Assembly (NCBI GenBank): GCA_900315705.1
Contig: ONAB01000022.1
Span: 1 to 53,575 of the forward strand
DNA from: an uncultured Bacteroidales bacterium
GTDB lineage: Bacteria; Bacteroidota; Bacteroidia; Bacteroidales; WCHB1-69
Length of the DNA: 53,575 nucleotides
Direction of reading: 5' to 3'
Shown: in pieces, positions 48,008 through 53,575 of the stretch
Layout of the letters: the number at the start of each line of letters is the position of its first letter
Numbering within the stretch: the first letter of the stretch is position 1
The notes under the pieces: model-generated
Database searches by the model: none
Told to the model about the DNA's origin: nothing
The model's input: only the letters and a program-made list of their open reading frames with translations
Made by a program: the position numbers and the translations under genes

Positions 48008-48262
48008 TTTAGCGTTGTCAGATTGTGGCGACGTTGTTGTAAGAGCGATGTGCACATTGCCTCCGCAACGTGGCATTGTGGCGGAAGCGTGACGCGCGCC
48101 AAGATGTTGGTTGTTGCGCCCCTTATCCCCGTTAGGGGATGCATATCTGTAGCCGATGGCGTTCCCCCACGTGTTCCCACATCCCCGTAGGGGATGCACA
48201 GGACGATATGGTCGGCAGCGGTTCATCGGCAGTGGTTTTGGAGGTGGCGAAAATACGATAAT
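48001..48262. repeat. Interspersed repeat copy A (paired hairpins)
   Basis: This is one of two direct copies of a repeat; copy B is at 50945-51165. Shared segments include AGAGTTGTT, GTGACGCGCGCCAA, ATGTTGGTTG and GGTTCATC. Two small hairpins occur: ATCCCCGTTAGGGGAT at 48125-48140 and ATCCCCGTAGGGGAT at 48181-48195. On the minus strand it has a -7-like TATTTTCG (48248-48255) and an ATG at 48226 starting a short frame MNRCRPYRP. It lies directly after the first RHS cassette. It could be a palindromic (REP-like) or MITE-like element. Confidence 0.72.
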
Positions 48263-48272
48263 TTTCCGTCTG

Positions 48273-48788
48273 TCAAATCTTCACACGTCTTTTGCCTTTT
48301 CTGTTTTTTTTAATAACATTATCTCTTTCCCCTTTCACCTTCACATACAAAGGATGCTCTCGAATGTATTTTTTGTATTCTTCTTTGCTCTGAAAATCAT
48401 CAGTAAAACACAAACCATAAATATCGTCAGTCAAAAAAATATCACATTCATATTCAACTTCGTTGAGTATAACATTGTTGTTGCCTGGCCAACCATAACT
48501 CCAATCACAAGGCATAGCCATATATGGATTCATGGAATTCAAACTGCATAACGATACATTAATGCTATCCCTGACAAACACATTACAACAATCATTTTCC
48601 ACTTTTCTTGTAACAATTTTAAACTTTTTACTATCATTATAAGCATATATTATCATATAATCGTTTGTAGAATCAATTTTCTCAACAATCAACTCATATT
48701 GAATACTTTCACAATCATCAGGTATTTGTGCAAAACCATTGCTGAAAATTGAAAACAGAAAAAATATCACAACAATTTTTTTCATCAT
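48273..48788 (-). CDS. Exported candidate immunity protein of RHS cassette 1
   Basis: This 171-residue protein has a signal peptide (KKIVVIFFLFSIFSNGFAQ) and an AT-rich, poorly conserved mature part with several cysteines (NDCCNVFVRD, CDWSYGW). It starts seven bases after the RHS cassette 1 stop on the same strand, the position of an immunity gene. No family is recognised. Export suggests the paired toxin acts outside the cytoplasm. A role as immunity protein is inference from position and from the two parallel pairs. Confidence 0.6.
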   Translation of the reverse strand: MMKKIVVIFFLFSIFSNGFAQIPDDCESIQYELIVEKIDSTNDYMIIYAYNDSKKFKIVTRKVENDCCNVFVRDSINVSLCSLNSMNPYMAMPCDWSYGWPGNNNVILNEVEYECDIFLTDDIYGLCFTDDFQSKEEYKKYIREHPLYVKVKGERDNVIKKNRKGKRRVKI

Positions 48789-48795
48789 TCTTCTA

Positions 48796-49530
48796 TCAAT
48801 ATACTTTTGTCGTCTTTAAATTCTTTTCGTTAACTCCATATTTAGCATTCCAATCTATCCATTTTGCACTATCACAGTCGGTCGGGTTATCTTGTGCATC
48901 ATAACAATATCGGTTAATTGGTCCAGATTGAGGTATAGCACCACTATGTGCTCTTCTATACAATGGGTTGCTGGATCCAATTGCTGAAGAAATAACATTT
49001 TCCGACATTGCAATCTTTGCCCCTTTGTATGCTTCTGTGATTTCATGCAGACTTGTTCTGCCGGGTAATCCATAAAATTCATCCATATCTTTTAATTCAG
49101 ATGGAATCACCGTTTGCTTAGCTACAGAAAACTGATTAATCCATACACCATCTATTGTTTCACCATACAGTTCATTTCCACCAAAGGCACCACCAAACAT
49201 ATATTCAGAATCAGTTCCTTTTTTATTGTTTATGGCATTTATCTCAACTTTTACGGATATGTCATTAACAGCATCCAAAAACAATTGCCCTTCTTTTGAG
49301 ACAGGGCCTTTACCTCTATATTTTGCGCTTAATATCCCATTATTATCTATTTTAACAGAAATACCGAACTCTTTTGCGCCTTTCCTTACTTCTTTAAAAA
49401 AATCTTTTGAAGCCTCACCACTAATAATGACCTCTTCCCCATTCGGATCCACCAACTTCACCGGATTATCAGCGCAATACGTGTAAGGTGATAACGATGG
49501 ATATTTTGCACTCATCGGGTCAACACTCAA
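48796..49530 (-). CDS. RHS cassette 1: RHS-core end plus LHEITEA toxin-like domain
   Basis: The 244-codon frame begins at the end of an RHS core (SVDPMSAKYPSLSPYTYCADNPVKLVDPNGEE), then a C-terminal domain of about 210 residues. That domain has GGAFGG, the motif SLHEITEAY (about residues 160-168) and HSGAIPQ. The same order, with MLHEVTEAF and HNQASPQP, occurs in cassette 3, so they are paralogous. The HE pair plus the later histidine may form a metal site. No ATG precedes the core; only a TTG is available, and the upstream core is deleted and out of frame (49531-49561). It may be a silent donor cassette rather than an expressed gene. Confidence 0.65.
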   Translation of the reverse strand: MSVDPMSAKYPSLSPYTYCADNPVKLVDPNGEEVIISGEASKDFFKEVRKGAKEFGISVKIDNNGILSAKYRGKGPVSKEGQLFLDAVNDISVKVEINAINNKKGTDSEYMFGGAFGGNELYGETIDGVWINQFSVAKQTVIPSELKDMDEFYGLPGRTSLHEITEAYKGAKIAMSENVISSAIGSSNPLYRRAHSGAIPQSGPINRYCYDAQDNPTDCDSAKWIDWNAKYGVNEKNLKTTKVY

Positions 49531-49561
49531 CCAGGTTCTTTTGCGGAGAAGGTGTGAAGGG
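49531..49561 (-). pseudogene. Deleted, frame-shifted RHS core junction
   Basis: Just upstream of cassette 1 on the minus strand the frame reads HTFSAKE, as in cassettes 2 and 3, but is followed directly by WLSVDPM in another frame. The 20 or so residues between these motifs in the other cassettes (ETGLSYFGSRYYSSDL) are missing, and the frame shifts at the join. Confidence 0.65.
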
Positions 49562-49568
49562 CGGCCTG

Positions 49569-49596
49569 TGATCGGTGAGCGGTGAACAATGAACCG
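49569..49596. repeat. Degenerate heptamer array (TGANCRR x4)
   Basis: Four adjacent 7-base units: TGATCGG, TGAGCGG, TGAACAA, TGAACCG. It lies directly upstream of the damaged core of RHS cassette 1. Confidence 0.55.
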
Positions 49597-49651
49597 ACTG
49601 TGGTAGGACGATATGTGGGATTGGGGGCAGGCATAATAATTTTCAATTGAT

Positions 49652-50095
49652 TTATTTTCTGCGAGTAAGAACTATCGGTATTCGCAAATGATAAGTCCAA
49701 TCTTGATTAATATTTTTATGATATTTTATATAAAACGTTTTTTTTTGAAATAAATTGAAAGTCTTCTTTGCAATTTTTAAACTGTCTATTTTTGACAATT
49801 TCACAGTTTTATCCAAATATTCTATCCTTATGGATTTAACATGAATACAATAATTGTTTATATAAAAGTCAATATCAACCAATGCTCTTATCGAATCTCT
49901 TATATTTTGAAAAGAAAAAATAATAGGGCTATTTGGTGTAAAAAACAAGTTGAAATCATGAAAGTCCATTATTACAAAAGAGTCGTCCATCTCATTGGGT
50001 GCTTCTTTAATAGGAATAATCATTTTATGTGATTGACCTAAACAAAACACAACGGAAGAGACAACTATGAAAAACATACATGTTAATTTTTCCAT
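49652..50095 (-). CDS. Exported candidate immunity protein of RHS cassette 2
   Basis: This 147-residue protein has a signal peptide (LTCMFFIVVSSVVFCLGQ) and a mature part of mixed strands ending in a basic tail (IPIVLTRRK). It overlaps the end of the RHS cassette 2 frame by 13 bases, so translation is coupled. No family is recognised. It is AT-rich compared with the housekeeping genes. Its role as an exported immunity protein is inferred from position. Confidence 0.6.
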   Translation of the reverse strand: MEKLTCMFFIVVSSVVFCLGQSHKMIIPIKEAPNEMDDSFVIMDFHDFNLFFTPNSPIIFSFQNIRDSIRALVDIDFYINNYCIHVKSIRIEYLDKTVKLSKIDSLKIAKKTFNLFQKKTFYIKYHKNINQDWTYHLRIPIVLTRRK

Positions 50096-51126
50096 GGCAT
50101 TAAAGGATAAAAATTTTCTATTAAATGTTTCGAATGATTACTTCTTCTGAGAGGATAATTATTGTCATAAGCACCTCCTCTATTTGCTCCTGAATGATCT
50201 TTAAAATCCTCAGTAACTATTTTCATATTGGTTGATGAGAAAACATCTAACAGAGCATCTACAGAAGTATTATATTCATCATTATCTCCTAAAAGCGGAC
50301 TTCGTGGAAATACGGTATTAATATTACATCCATATTCTGTGACAACACTTGTCTCAAACAACATAGCTTCTACCTCGTTGTGTATTGATCTTTGCCCTTG
50401 TCCCTTTTCATCTTGATAAGCATGAAAAAGTTCATGAGAAATTGTGCCAATAGTATTCTGTCCTTGAGTAACGATGACACCACCTGATTTTCCATTCACA
50501 TCATCATTTGCACAGAAATAAGGAGTGCTGTAATTGTTGTCCAAGTTGTCTGTAATAGAATATACATTGTCTGAAGAAGTAAGTTCGCCTAATAATTTTT
50601 TCCCGCCTCTAGTTGAATTTATTTGATTTAAAGTATTAACCTTGCCTATTATACTTTTATCTTGCCCATCATAAATCATTCCTTGAGTATATTTAATACG
50701 AGAGCCATCTTCTCCAATCAGCCAAATCTCCTCCCCATTCGGATCCACCAGCTTCACCGGGTTATCCGCGCAGTACACATACGGACTCAACGACGGATAT
50801 TTCCCACTCATCGGATCGACGCTGAGCCAGAGGCTCAAATCGGAACTATAATAGCGTGATCCAAAATAAGATAGGCCTGTTTCTATGTCGCGTTCTTTGG
50901 CGGAGAAGGTGTGAGAGGAGTGGAGAGTATAATGTGGAGAGAGGAGAGTTGTTGTAGCGCCGTCACATTGTGGTGGCGTTGCGGCGGAAACGTGACGCGC
51001 GCCAAAATGTTGGTTGCCGCGCCCCCCATCCCCGTCAGGGGATGCATCTCTGTAGAGGACGTTCCCGCGAGAGGACAAAATCCCCGTTAGGGGATTCATA
51101 AGGCGGTGTGGTCGGCAACGGTTCAT
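50083..51126 (-). CDS. RHS cassette 2: RHS-core end plus HExxH metallopeptidase-like domain
   Basis: The 347-residue frame starts inside interspersed repeat copy B (residues 1-70, MNRCRPHRLMNPLTG...). At about residue 72 it enters an RHS core end (HTFSAKERDIETGLSYFGSRYY, then SVDPMSGKYPSLSPYVYCADNP). The remaining 210 residues are a variable tip with a zincin motif HELFH at 231-235 and a following HNEVEAMLFE with candidate third-ligand glutamates at 251 and 253. This fits RHS-associated metallopeptidase toxins. No signal peptide is visible. If translated from ATG 51126 the product would be a free tip without the shell that normally encases it. Confidence 0.68.
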   Translation of the reverse strand: MNRCRPHRLMNPLTGILSSRGNVLYRDASPDGDGGRGNQHFGARHVSAATPPQCDGATTTLLSPHYTLHSSHTFSAKERDIETGLSYFGSRYYSSDLSLWLSVDPMSGKYPSLSPYVYCADNPVKLVDPNGEEIWLIGEDGSRIKYTQGMIYDGQDKSIIGKVNTLNQINSTRGGKKLLGELTSSDNVYSITDNLDNNYSTPYFCANDDVNGKSGGVIVTQGQNTIGTISHELFHAYQDEKGQGQRSIHNEVEAMLFETSVVTEYGCNINTVFPRSPLLGDNDEYNTSVDALLDVFSSTNMKIVTEDFKDHSGANRGGAYDNNYPLRRSNHSKHLIENFYPLMPWKN

Positions 51127-51165
51127 CAGCGGTGTGTTTTTGATGGGGCGAAAATAGGAAATTTT
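50945..51165. repeat. Interspersed repeat copy B (paired hairpins)
   Basis: This is the second direct copy of the repeat at 48001-48262. Hairpins lie at 51028-51043 (ATCCCCGTCAGGGGAT) and 51079-51096 (AATCCCCGTTAGGGGATT). The minus-strand -7-like TATTTTCG (51149-51156) and ATG (51126) lie at nearly the same relative position as in copy A. Here the encoded MNRCRP frame is fused in frame to the RHS core of cassette 2. It lies directly after the immunity gene of cassette 3. Confidence 0.75.
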
Positions 51166-51205
51166 TGGTGTCAGGTTAATGTGCGAAATTTTGGTGGTGT
51201 TATAA

Positions 51206-51751
51206 TTACAGAGGTCTAAACGAGTTGTCTCTGATTTTTTTCAGCCTGCGTTTCGTGCATTTTTTTTGATAGCAAAGCCCGTCAAGGTTGGGTGACAGAT
51301 ATACATTGGTGTACCTGTGGTGATTTCTAACCGTGATGTGGTGTCTTTCTATGAAAACAATGTAATTCACCGCAGGATTCAAAAAAAGCAAATGCTTCTT
51401 GAATTGAGGATACAACACAAAATAATATGATTCACCCTCACGGATTTTATTCCTGTGTTTTCGATTTTGCCACGATACAACAAGCCGTTCTCTTCCATCT
51501 TTGTTTTCTAATATCAACTCGTAATAATCCACATTATGTAACTGCTTTTTTAACGTATAGTCTATGTAATCCAAACCCGAAACAATAGATAGTCTCTTGA
51601 CGTTAAAGGTGTCTCTCTCAATTTCGGCACAGACTTTATATTTGTACTCGCCTATTTTTACGCTGTCCGCGCCATTTTCACATTGGCCCAATGTTTTTAT
51701 CGTAAATGAAAAAGAAACAACTATTGATAATATTAATCCTTGCAGGTTCAT
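51206..51751 (-). CDS. Exported candidate immunity protein of RHS cassette 3
   Basis: This 181-residue protein has an N-terminal signal segment (MNLQGLILSIVVSFSFTIKTLGQ) and a mature domain with YKYKVCAEIERDTFNVKRL and a basic C-terminus (CYQKKCTKRRLKKIRD). Its start overlaps the cassette 3 stop by one base, so it is coupled. No family is recognised. It completes the third RHS-tip plus exported-protein pair. Confidence 0.6.
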   Translation of the reverse strand: MNLQGLILSIVVSFSFTIKTLGQCENGADSVKIGEYKYKVCAEIERDTFNVKRLSIVSGLDYIDYTLKKQLHNVDYYELILENKDGRERLVVSWQNRKHRNKIREGESYYFVLYPQFKKHLLFLNPAVNYIVFIERHHITVRNHHRYTNVYLSPNLDGLCYQKKCTKRRLKKIRDNSFRPL

Positions 51752-52611
51752 TACTGATATTTTTTTAAAGTATCTCGAAGAAATCGAATCACCTTTGCAA
51801 AATTTCTTATCGATTGATGACTGACATATTCGGAATATGGTTGTGGTGAGGCTTGGTTGTGTGATTGCTCATAAAGATGATATGTTGGATTTCCAGGGAT
51901 GGCTGGCTCAATATTAACGTTATTCTCTAGAGAGATTTTTCCTGCTTCAAATGCTTCTGTCACCTCGTGCAACATACAATTGTCTTTTCCAATATTATGT
52001 TTTAATGAGTACTGTGTTGTACCATTCGGGGATGTGAAAGATTCCATGTTTCCATAGTAATCTATACCTGCAAGTAGTAGTGGATTGACCGTCTGTTTGG
52101 CATCAACCGACCCGTCTGGATTTATATGTGTTCCCATATGAGCTCCACCTTCAAAGGATAATCCTTGGATGTCATCAATGTCATTAGCGGAAATCCTCAC
52201 ATGTACATTATTGTCGTTCAATGCTTCTCGTAGTTTTGCATCGCTTTCAGTCTTAACCTCTCCAGAATATGAAATTTTTCCAGTTTTAGAATCTCTGTAC
52301 AATTTCAGATTTGTGGAACTTTTCAATTGTTTAAAGGCCAATTCCCATTCATCTCCTGTTATCCACACATCTTCTCCATCCGGGTCCACAAACTTCACTG
52401 GATTATCCGCGCAATACACATAGGGGCTCAGAGATGGATATTTCGAGGCCATCGGATCCACGCTCAACCAGATGCTCAAGTCGGAGGAATAATATCTTGA
52501 ACCAAAGTAAGATAGCCCGGTTTCCGCATCGCGTTCTTTGGCGGAGAAGGTGTGATTATCCGCAAAGAGCCTCGAAAAGGGAGAAACGGTATGTGTAAAC
52601 TGTTGGTTCAT
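51751..52611 (-). CDS. RHS cassette 3: RHS-core end plus LHEVTEA toxin-like domain, own promoter
   Basis: This 286-residue protein starts MNQQFTHTVSPFSRLF and enters the RHS core end within 20 residues (HTFSAKERDAETGLSYFGSR, then SVDPMASKYPSLSPYVYCADNPVKF). The C-terminal 205-residue domain has FEGGAHMG, the motif MLHEVTEAFEAGKI (HE at about 215-216) and HNQASPQP, which match cassette 1. A -7 element at 52631-52638 lies 20 bases before ATG 52611, so this orphan tip appears to be transcribed alone. No shell domain or signal peptide is present. The activity is unknown; a metal-dependent hydrolase is a guess from the HE and later His. Confidence 0.7.
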   Translation of the reverse strand: MNQQFTHTVSPFSRLFADNHTFSAKERDAETGLSYFGSRYYSSDLSIWLSVDPMASKYPSLSPYVYCADNPVKFVDPDGEDVWITGDEWELAFKQLKSSTNLKLYRDSKTGKISYSGEVKTESDAKLREALNDNNVHVRISANDIDDIQGLSFEGGAHMGTHINPDGSVDAKQTVNPLLLAGIDYYGNMESFTSPNGTTQYSLKHNIGKDNCMLHEVTEAFEAGKISLENNVNIEPAIPGNPTYHLYEQSHNQASPQPYSEYVSHQSIRNFAKVIRFLRDTLKKYQ

Positions 52612-52630: not shown

Positions 52631-52638
52631 CAAAAATA
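52631..52638 (-). promoter_or_regulatory. -7 promoter element of RHS cassette 3 (TATTTTTG)
   Basis: TATTTTTG on the minus strand lies 20 bases before ATG 52611. Confidence 0.55.
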
Positions 52639-52837
52639 GCATTTTTTTCGATATGAAAAAAAAGGCCATATTTGCGCCATATTTTTTTCCGGCAATCGCC
52701 TGGAAGCACCTGTATGCAAGGGATTGCAGGTGTTGTGACCGTGACAAAACTGTGCCATTACCCGTGAAAACACGCCTTTTCAATCCGATGCTACAAACTA
52801 TTATATATACAACAATTTTTTTTAATCAAAATCACTT
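52639..52837. other. AT-rich intergenic region between RHS cassette 3 and the recombinase
   Basis: No gene is seen. A direct repeat GCCATATTT occurs twice at about 52664-52685. This divergent region should hold the recombinase promoter, but no clean TAnnTTTG is visible close to its start. An attachment site cannot be recognised. Confidence 0.35.
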
Positions 52838-53575
52838 ATGGCAACACCTTTCATCGATTTCAGACCCGCCGAGGTCAGAAAGAACAAAGAGACCTACATC
52901 CTTTACTACGTGCTTGACCCCGCCAGCGACAAACTCAAGCGGATGCGCATACGCTGCAACCGTGTCAAGTGTCCCAGGGAGCGACTCAAATACGCCAATC
53001 TGATTTGTGCGGAAATCAACAGAAAACTCTACAACGGCTGGAACCCGCTGACTGGCGAGGAGTCCACATCGACGAAACGGGTCTCCATTGTGGAGGCGGC
53101 CACGGACTTTGTCCGCCAAAAGGAGAAGGACCTCCGCAAGGACACCGTGCGCAGCTACAGGTCCAAACTGTCGTTCTTCACCGGATGGTGCGGGAGAACC
53201 GGCATATCGAACTGGCTCTGCGGGCGCTTCACCAGCAGCCAGGCGGCGAACATTCTCGACGAATACGGAGGAGGAAGAAGCATCTGCGCATTCAACAGTA
53301 TGCTCCAGTTCCTGAAAAGCCTGTTCCGGTCGTTTGTCTCCCGCGGCCTCGCCGCGCACAACCCATTTGCCGCGTTCAAGGCGAAGAAGAGGGAGGCCAA
53401 GCGCAGGGTCACCATCCCGAAACAGGACCGCCGGAGAATCCTCGGCTACTTCCACAAACGCGGTATGAACGGGTACGTCGCGATGATCCGGCTGTGCTTC
53501 AAATACCTGGTCCGGCCAAAAGAGATTCTTATGCTCAGGGTCCGCGACATCGACTTCGACACGGGGCTCCTCCGC
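52838..53575 (+). CDS. Tyrosine recombinase (integrase family), 3' truncated by window edge
   Basis: The frame is open from ATG 52838 to the last base (246 codons) and continues beyond. The N-terminal 90 residues form an arm/DNA-binding domain (KETYILYYVLDPASDKLKRMRIRCN), then a SAM-like core-binding domain (SIVEAATDFVRQKEKDLRKDTVRSYRSKLSFF). The catalytic domain has begun at KAKKREAKRRVTIPKQDRR, and the first active-site arginine is in KYLVRPKEILMLRVRDIDF. The remaining active residues and tyrosine lie outside. It may belong to a mobile element or act on sites near the RHS array. Confidence 0.85.
   Translation, partial: MATPFIDFRPAEVRKNKETYILYYVLDPASDKLKRMRIRCNRVKCPRERLKYANLICAEINRKLYNGWNPLTGEESTSTKRVSIVEAATDFVRQKEKDLRKDTVRSYRSKLSFFTGWCGRTGISNWLCGRFTSSQAANILDEYGGGRSICAFNSMLQFLKSLFRSFVSRGLAAHNPFAAFKAKKREAKRRVTIPKQDRRRILGYFHKRGMNGYVAMIRLCFKYLVRPKEILMLRVRDIDFDTGLLR

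Follow-up and report, generated by a model that had tools for sequence, protein, structure and literature searches.

How three RHS core ends, each joined to its own C-terminal tip and followed by a small gene, can be of use where they stand apart from an RHS shell gene is the question raised by one end of a contig from an uncultured Bacteroidales bacterium. The stretch analysed here (53,575 nucleotides, hereafter the window) suggests an answer that, taken as a whole, we consider fairly likely: the modules would constitute an exchangeable array of toxin tips and immunity genes, most probably belonging to a locus with a divergent recombinase, a T9SS-tailed protein and an RHS shell.

All three modules lie on the minus strand and, as described in an earlier note on this DNA, consist of an RHS core end, a tip of about 200 residues and a downstream gene. 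Frame A (52611-51751, ATG start) contains a core end of 62 aa (52369..52554; TIGR03696, E 2.8e-17) and tip A, 205 aa with the motif HEVTEA (51751..52368); immunity candidate A (51206..51751, 181 aa) overlaps the frame by 1 base. Frame B (51126-50083) starts with an ATG and a 71-aa in-frame leader from 51126, and continues into the core end (50728..50913; TIGR03696, E 4.6e-16) and tip B, 214 aa with the zinc-protease-like motif HELFH (50083..50727); immunity candidate B (49652..50095, 147 aa) overlaps by 13 bases. Frame C (49530-48796) starts with TTG and comprises a core end (49436..49535) and tip C, 211 aa with the motif HEITEA (48796..49431), with immunity candidate C (48273..48788, 171 aa) 7 bases downstream. 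The offsets (A -1, B -13, C +7) are those given previously. Modules A and B exceed the cut-off of TIGR03696, the RHS core profile, whereas module C reaches 24.4 bits against a cut-off of 32.5 and matches the second half of the profile only. The cores coincide with direct repeats D1/D2 (110-207 nt, 75-78% identity). A D3 repeat on the same strand (48070..48265), which shares 80% identity with the leader of module B, is the leader remnant of a further module whose core and tip are gone. Promoter-like elements, TATTTTTG (TAnnTTTG; 52631..52638, minus strand) and TATTTTCG (51149..51156, minus strand), are located 27 nt 5′ of the module A ATG and 30 nt 5′ of the module B ATG, respectively. In module C the leader and the core occupy different reading frames, so that frame C starts at internal codons only. 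The window array is one of several such sites, since the genome contains 17 core-end matches at E <= 0.01. Further modules are found on contigs C12, C3 and C5, and one more lies downstream of the shell on C4 (C3, C4, C5, C12, C18 and C31 are contigs of this genome; G012, G027, G030 and G041 are other genomes).

The statement that the array has no shell gene is correct for the window, yet this absence is probably an assembly effect. Divergent from the array, the plus strand carries the N-terminal part (246 codons) of a tyrosine recombinase gene (integrase; 52838..53575), which is cut by the contig end, and contig C4 carries the C-terminus of such a recombinase together with a shell. On C4, the recombinase end at the contig end is directly followed by the T9SS-tailed gene and then by an RHS shell of 3139 aa that bears a signal peptide, SpvB, a TcB-like middle domain and RHS repeats. 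The complete order (modules, recombinase, T9SS-like gene, shell) is present on one contig of a relative, G027. The T9SS tail is sub-threshold in two relatives, and the T9SS component SprA is present. The BC shells of Tc toxins are likewise composed of SpvB, a TcB-like middle domain and an RHS shell with a hypervariable C-terminus; the C4 shell shares these domains but unites them in one polypeptide that starts with a signal peptide, and it has linked immunity genes and a T9SS-tailed neighbor. Delivery by a type VI secretion system as the default reading was given low weight: the search for VipA gave no match, none of the shell's six Pfam matches is PAAR, and the shell carries a signal peptide, although a Bacteroidales-type T6SS is still conceivable. 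The TssD search matched nothing anywhere, controls included, and is thus uninformative on T6SS.

Several sequence traces point to exchange. The core of module C is identical to the C4 shell core over 100 nt (100%), against 76-86% for 11 other type I modules (76 and 80% for A and B), but a stretch of this length is close to a k-mer length and the assembler may have joined its flanks wrongly. The match nonetheless supplies the full-length RHS gene with a core corresponding in DNA to a cassette core that the earlier note had proposed to look for. A tip C homologue (68%) in a related species (G041) is fused to a shell frame of 2519 aa, open at the contig end, and is followed by a 79% identical homologue of immunity C; among the window's three tips, C is the one seen on a shell elsewhere. 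For module A the trace is a breakpoint at the core/tip boundary: compared with the copy of another species, the core is 78-82% identical and the tip 98-100%, with about 57% past the immunity stop. Both observations, this breakpoint and the occurrence of tip C as shell-fused in one species and orphan in another, support the suggestion of tip exchange. Pairs also recur together, as had been anticipated: tip B and immunity B in G030 (62% and 37%), and a 90% identical copy of immunity A behind tip A in G012. Among 58 tips (66 before duplicate removal; the C18 module, L043, is outside the set) there are 70 homologous tip pairs, of which the strongest 12 coincide exactly with the 12 whose immunity genes are homologous too, and every homologous immunity pair has a homologous tip pair; loci L062-L067 were chosen for carrying tip C relatives, which inflates the tip C family pairs and the HExxE counts in this set. 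At the level of sequence, then, the core end common to shell and modules is the exchange border, and tip and immunity move jointly among array, shell and other species.

The recombinase might offer a second way to move modules. The fragment in the window gives sub-threshold matches to Pfam integrase profiles and is 63% identical over 247 residues to a complete relative; for the four complete relatives the PF00589 score is 77-82 bits (cut-off 27.1), and a second copy, 89% identical, is located on C31. At identities of at least 54%, 12/12 recombinase loci are accompanied by modules and/or the T9SS-like gene and shell, compared with 0/41 at 42% or less, in a scan where some loci have short flanks or represent one contig under two names. 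Tyrosine recombinases next to arrays of exchangeable units are familiar from integrons and shufflons, and the enzyme could itself shift modules site-specifically, as a tip-switching device of this kind. We regard this as unlikely, though worth weighing. The recombinase sits between array and shell, and in 10/12 loci at >=54% identity the modules begin on its divergent side, at a distance of 277-345 nt. This proximal module has a conserved promoter-like element, a leader beginning mostly with MNQ or MSQ and, upstream, the element TGGCGCAAANATNNCC (52664..52679, minus strand, between recombinase and first module), a candidate recombinase site or regulatory element derived from an alignment of 15 recombinase-proximal regions. 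The element has a single match in the window and its exact pattern occurs once each in 12 of the 30 loci scanned (with the same caveat on flanks and contig names), but in these loci it is found only beside the recombinase; contigs C12, C3 and C5 carry modules and no match to the window recombinase. Synonymous conservation is elevated over the opening codons of the core, as a recombination site there might cause, but also elsewhere (47/50 sequences kept in the codon table, with module C, the C4 shell and a C5 hybrid left out), and is therefore not decisive for such a site. Finally, stretches shared exactly, which four genomes have within the core or next to it, start at varied points; together with the module A breakpoint at the core/tip border, this is the pattern expected of homologous recombination, with which the breakpoints are consistent. 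In an integron the recombinase is accompanied by attI and attC sites; the comparable candidate here is the conserved element beside the recombinase. Unlike the units of integrons and shufflons, those described here share coding homology and apparently move through it.

The three tips had been considered different, but A and C prove to be distantly homologous (30% identity, E 7e-10). Tip B is 30% identical to the tip of the C4 shell and scores 16.3 bits with PF14891 (Peptidase M91), below the cut-off of 25, which two modules on C31 pass (57.4 and 45.9 bits). The predicted model of tip C (pLDDT 79, pTM 0.79) is weakly zincin-like, and Foldseek found no confident match to it in the PDB; the single-sequence model of tip B failed (pLDDT 31). 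Searches of tips A/C and B against sequences of solved structures gave chance-like matches only. In this genome, 7/20 tips contain HExxH or HE[ILVM]xE[AS], where shuffles lead one to expect 0.07.

The downstream genes point to the envelope. According to a home-made predictor, immunity candidates A, B and C all begin with an export-like signal, as had been noted, and export or membrane signals occur in 54/57 immunity candidates vs 36/105 control frames (the candidate taken being whichever frame was longest between -120 and +260 nt, which at L095:17090 is the next module). This makes envelope-acting or Sec-exported toxins likely. The proposed site of action, periplasm or envelope, is thereby favored indirectly, but a toxin that crosses its producer's own periplasm would account for the signals equally. 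Immunities A and C have no detectable homology to each other, and none of the three candidates in the window matches Pfam, with NCBIfam giving them chance-level matches only. Such genes, for none of which immunity activity is known, might instead encode exported proteins that serve surface proteases as partners or substrates; we find this very unlikely, as the pairs are inherited together and, in short loci of 4 genomes (where the tip C search was negative), relatives of immunity C occur on their own, with neither tip nor core, like orphan immunity genes. Even less probable is the idea that the modules are intracellular toxin-antitoxin pairs, as reported for Salmonella orphan rhs in the available part of one paper (PMC7043789). 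It would fit modules that look expressed and whose frames mostly (46/49) have no export signal of their own, but an immunity protein with an export or membrane signal would make no contact with a cytoplasmic toxin. Classification as a type II toxin-antitoxin was set aside for the same predicted export, since an antitoxin of that type is cytoplasmic.

The earlier term "storage array" may be too passive for the orphan tip/immunity modules. An in-frame ATG leader is present in 38/42 orphan modules, and 24 of those 38 have a promoter-like element vs 1.8 expected in single-base shuffles; a module that has a leader of its own together with such an element is probably expressed. The leaders contain GGGGAT palindromes, which were considered as att sites, and leader copies occur elsewhere in the genome. 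dN/dS is 0.12 (median) for the cores, about 0.19 for tip C and about 0.21 for tip B (9 own-genome modules kept, three left out; 35/36 pairs usable). These values, the leaders and promoter-like elements, and the co-inheritance of tip and immunity weigh against modules being dead fragments displaced from the shell and now functionless. The out-of-frame leader of module C, the tipless leader remnant and the 4/42 orphan modules in which, as in module C, an in-frame ATG leader is missing are what such decay would leave, and as a general explanation it appears quite improbable; pure pseudogene debris was put low on the same grounds.

The preferred explanation, the exchangeable array, can be assembled into a mechanism. 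The locus would read array, tyrosine recombinase, T9SS-tailed protein and very large signal-peptide RHS shell, and the displayed tip would be swapped through recombination within the core. The shell would carry this tip across its own cell envelope to neighbors, in whose periplasm or envelope tips A and C (HExxE) and B (HExxH) may act as zincin-like metallo-hydrolases. Exported immunity would shield the producer, and that of stored modules would protect against siblings displaying the corresponding tip. The orphan tips, being mostly without export signals, would remain in the cytoplasm, apart from their envelope target.

Several known systems show parts of this arrangement. Enterobacterial orphan rhs-CT/rhsI modules, as far as the accessible sections of two reports describe them (PMC3967940, PMC3150448), are displaced tips with immunity and a conserved core end, can become deliverable via recombination with the main rhs gene, and occur shell-fused in other strains. 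The likeness here lies in the core-end DNA homology to a shell of the same genome and in tip C being shell-fused elsewhere. According to the same sections, the enterobacterial orphans usually do not have translation initiation signals (a tendency, not an absolute rule), in contrast to the leaders of most modules here; the signal-peptide shell, the exported-looking immunity and a recombinase separating the array from the T9SS-like gene and shell also differ from them. Polymorphic toxins include standalone toxin-immunity cassettes that donate 3′ replacements, RHS repeats in Sec-exported toxins, and metallopeptidase domains such as HopH1/NleD-like ones, and the portion available of that survey describes neither a locus-associated recombinase nor lineage-wide export signals on immunity (PMC3482391). 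TANFOR toxins of Bacteroidetes are large, mostly have a signal peptide, lie near T9SS substrates, and combine variable C-terminal tips with downstream immunity; their N-terminal domain is another, and a module array with recombinase is not described in the part of the paper at hand (PMC7073777). Among the literature matches listed (titles and abstract beginnings, few subscription journals, no bioRxiv), a recombinase between RHS shell and tip array is undescribed.

Orphan rhs arrays, described from enterobacteria in the sources above, are now extended to uncultured Bacteroidales, where the delivery setting differs: there is a signal peptide, a T9SS-tailed neighbor, no VipA match, and antidotes that look exported nearly always. 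Evidence at the level of breakpoints indicates that the unit of exchange is tip plus immunity, between species too. The conserved recombinase is named as a candidate whose part in tip switching is directly testable. Should this dedicated recombinase, placed between a T9SS-linked RHS shell and a bank of expressed modules aimed at the envelope, drive the switching, a prospect we hold only tentatively and think rather improbable, the locus would be a programmed weapon-switching device of gut Bacteroidales of ruminants and their relatives.

At the right end of the window (48273..52611) lie three minus-strand modules, A, B and C. Each opens with a leader, followed by the terminal part of an RHS core, its tip (205-214 residues) and a small gene, the immunity candidate, whose product has an export-like signal. 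The offsets between tip and immunity gene described in the earlier note are correct for all three. Module C is followed by the remnant of another leader, which has neither core nor tip. Sequence comparison shows distant homology between tips A and C (30% identity, E 7e-10); it also relates tip B to the tip of a shell, a full-length RHS gene, elsewhere in the same genome (30% identity, E 5e-20). The immunity genes of these two tip pairs show no detectable relationship.

The window is the entire contig C25 of a 3.0 Mb genome in 47 contigs, which contains 17 core-end matches at E <= 0.01. Among them, besides the C4 and C32 genes described below, are an array of four modules on C31, two further modules on C12 and, on C3 and C5, a second type of core. 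This second type, MGGYRYFFNGQE (loci L040 and L041), has shell-like frames whose ends lie at the ends of both contigs, and orphan tip/immunity modules of its own. A hybrid module on C5 (L041:4670-5518) fuses a second-type leader and core start to the core end and tip of type I, the core type of modules A-C; the joined part shows small length changes and the frame stays open across it. The type I shell on C4 (3139 aa) carries a signal peptide and SpvB, FG-GAP, TcB-like and RHS domains, and the gene upstream of it has a T9SS sorting domain (27.9 bits, cut-off 27). The genome encodes the T9SS protein SprA; a search for the T6SS protein VipA found none. C32 carries a Tc-like SpvB/TcB/RHS gene (L042:232-6318; 2028 aa) whose tip is Ntox23 and which adjoins a T9SS-tailed gene. 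The search range of 260 nt downstream of the RHS gene, cut short by the contig end after 231 nt, contained no immunity candidate. An additional RHS-end frame on C18 (L043:2533-3516), containing the motif HELLHSYHH and followed by a gene whose product looks exported, was left out of the counted set.

The window array is divergent from a tyrosine recombinase gene (52838..53575, plus strand) that runs off the contig end. The fragment by itself gives weak matches to integrase profiles, and four complete relatives match PF00589 (77-82 bits). C31 has the same arrangement (recombinase fragment 89% identical), and its final 99 nt are identical to those of C25, as at an assembly fork. At the end of C4 is the C-terminal part of a recombinase of this kind, and immediately downstream of it come the T9SS gene, single copy in this genome, and the shell; the contig joined to C4 would be C25 or C31. 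In relative G027, a single contig holds modules, recombinase, T9SS-like gene, a 3094-aa shell, an immunity gene and then further modules; other relatives show parts of this order, bounded by their contigs.

The linkage was surveyed in 53 recombinase loci from public genomes. Modules and/or a T9SS-like gene plus shell are present in all 12 loci with a recombinase of at least 54% identity, and in none of the 41 at or below 42%. In 10 of the 12, modules lie 277-345 nt from the recombinase on the divergent side; the T9SS-like gene also occurs in 10. The two loci without a module are L114, with only 183 nt available on the divergent side, and L159, which covers only the last 62 recombinase residues and lacks a module within 10 kb. 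The recombinase-bearing relatives are recorded as Bacteroidales, many of ruminant origin and one from horse faeces. Genomes G011 and G030 have a truncated recombinase with modules on both sides; at L101, L102 and L081/L130 the flanked remnant spans about 150-240 residues, as if shell and recombinase end had been lost. Recombinases 37-42% identical to that of the window (L100, L103, L104, L105, L107, L108) sit in different contexts, several adjoining genes of phage-like appearance (by eye), and the RHS-linked recombinase may therefore be a derived branch.

A full-length RHS gene matching a cassette core at the DNA level, which the earlier note had in view, is present: the core end of module C (49535-49436) shares 100 identical nt with the C4 shell core; identity to that shell core is 76-86% in the genome's 11 other type I modules. 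To the left of this stretch lies an out-of-frame orphan leader in module C versus shell sequence in C4, and to the right tip C versus the present shell tip. Because 100 nt is close to the 99-nt overlap at the contig ends, the flanks may have been wrongly paired by the assembler; the stretch itself is genuinely present at both sites, but the C4 shell may carry another tip than the assembly shows. A relative of tip C (68%) in G041, a member of the same genus, lies within a shell frame of 2519 aa that runs open to the contig end, and a homologous immunity gene (79%) comes after it. Module A and its counterpart in G012, another member of the genus, are 98-100% identical in the tip, 78-82% in the core and 78-98% in the immunity gene, falling to about 57% beyond its end. 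Since the two genomes are only 75% and 79% identical at the DNA level in recombinase and T9SS gene, respectively, and the cores likewise diverge, tip A and its immunity gene have very probably been transferred recently between species. Seven module pairs in four genomes, whose tips were not found related, share identical stretches of 75-108 nt within the core or next to it; the start points of these stretches vary, which fits homologous recombination. The recombinase may take part in tip exchange, as its tight linkage to modules and shell suggests; the breakpoints, and modules distant from it, favour ordinary homologous recombination.

Tips and immunity genes are inherited together. The 58 distinct tips compared form 70 homologous tip pairs. 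Homologous immunity genes accompany exactly the 12 strongest of these pairs and none of the remaining 58, and within this set no homologous immunity pair occurs without a homologous tip pair. An additional search gave a further pair in G012 (tip A 98%, immunity A 90%) and a remote one in G055 (tip 30%, immunity 27%). Immunity C has matches in 8 of 105 family genomes. In its own genome, G041 and G082 it occurs with the tip; in G019, G057, G058 and G065, where a search for tip C gave no match, it stands in 2-3.5 kb of sequence that contains neither tip nor core; and in G005 the match is weak and lies inside a 594-residue frame. The standalone relatives (L170, L171, L172, L173) are 67-75% identical, that of G058 having an in-frame stop.

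An in-frame ATG leader is present in 38 of 42 orphan type I modules, module C being among the four without one. In 24 of these 38, TAnnTT[TC]G, which resembles the Bacteroidetes -7 promoter consensus, lies 15-60 nt upstream of a leader ATG (1.8 expected from shuffles). The median core dN/dS in the genome is 0.12; values are 0.19 for tip C against G041, 0.21 for tip B against G030 and 0.27-0.45 for immunity genes, and tip A differs too little from G012 for an estimate. ATG leaders are usual here, in contrast to enterobacterial orphan rhs modules, which according to their authors usually lack translation initiation signals (PMC3967940, PMC3150448).

With a simple home-made predictor, export or membrane signals are called in 54 of 57 immunity candidates (17/19 in this genome). 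The same predictor calls them in 36 of 105 control frames (window 19/40, other loci 17/65) and in 13 of 53 size-matched ones. HExxH or HExxE-type motifs occur in 7 of 20 own-genome tips (0.07 expected); two tips are M91 domains over the cut-off, and one DUF4347 match falls below threshold. Ntox44 and Ntox23 tips and one weak GH19 match were also found. The predicted structure of tip C is of fair quality (pLDDT 79, pTM 0.79), and the best structure matches on a second look are zincin-like and weak. The likeliest toxin target is the envelope or periplasm; alternatively, immunity may be needed because the toxin crosses the producer's own periplasm.

Earlier work has described orphan modules of tip and immunity gene and how these recombine onto the main gene, as well as standalone cassettes and metallopeptidase tips (PMC3967940, PMC3150448, PMC3482391). 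As far as the literature was searched, what is new is a conserved recombinase between the array and a T9SS-linked shell, nearly universal export signals on the immunity candidates of this lineage, and orphan modules that bear leaders and promoter-like elements.
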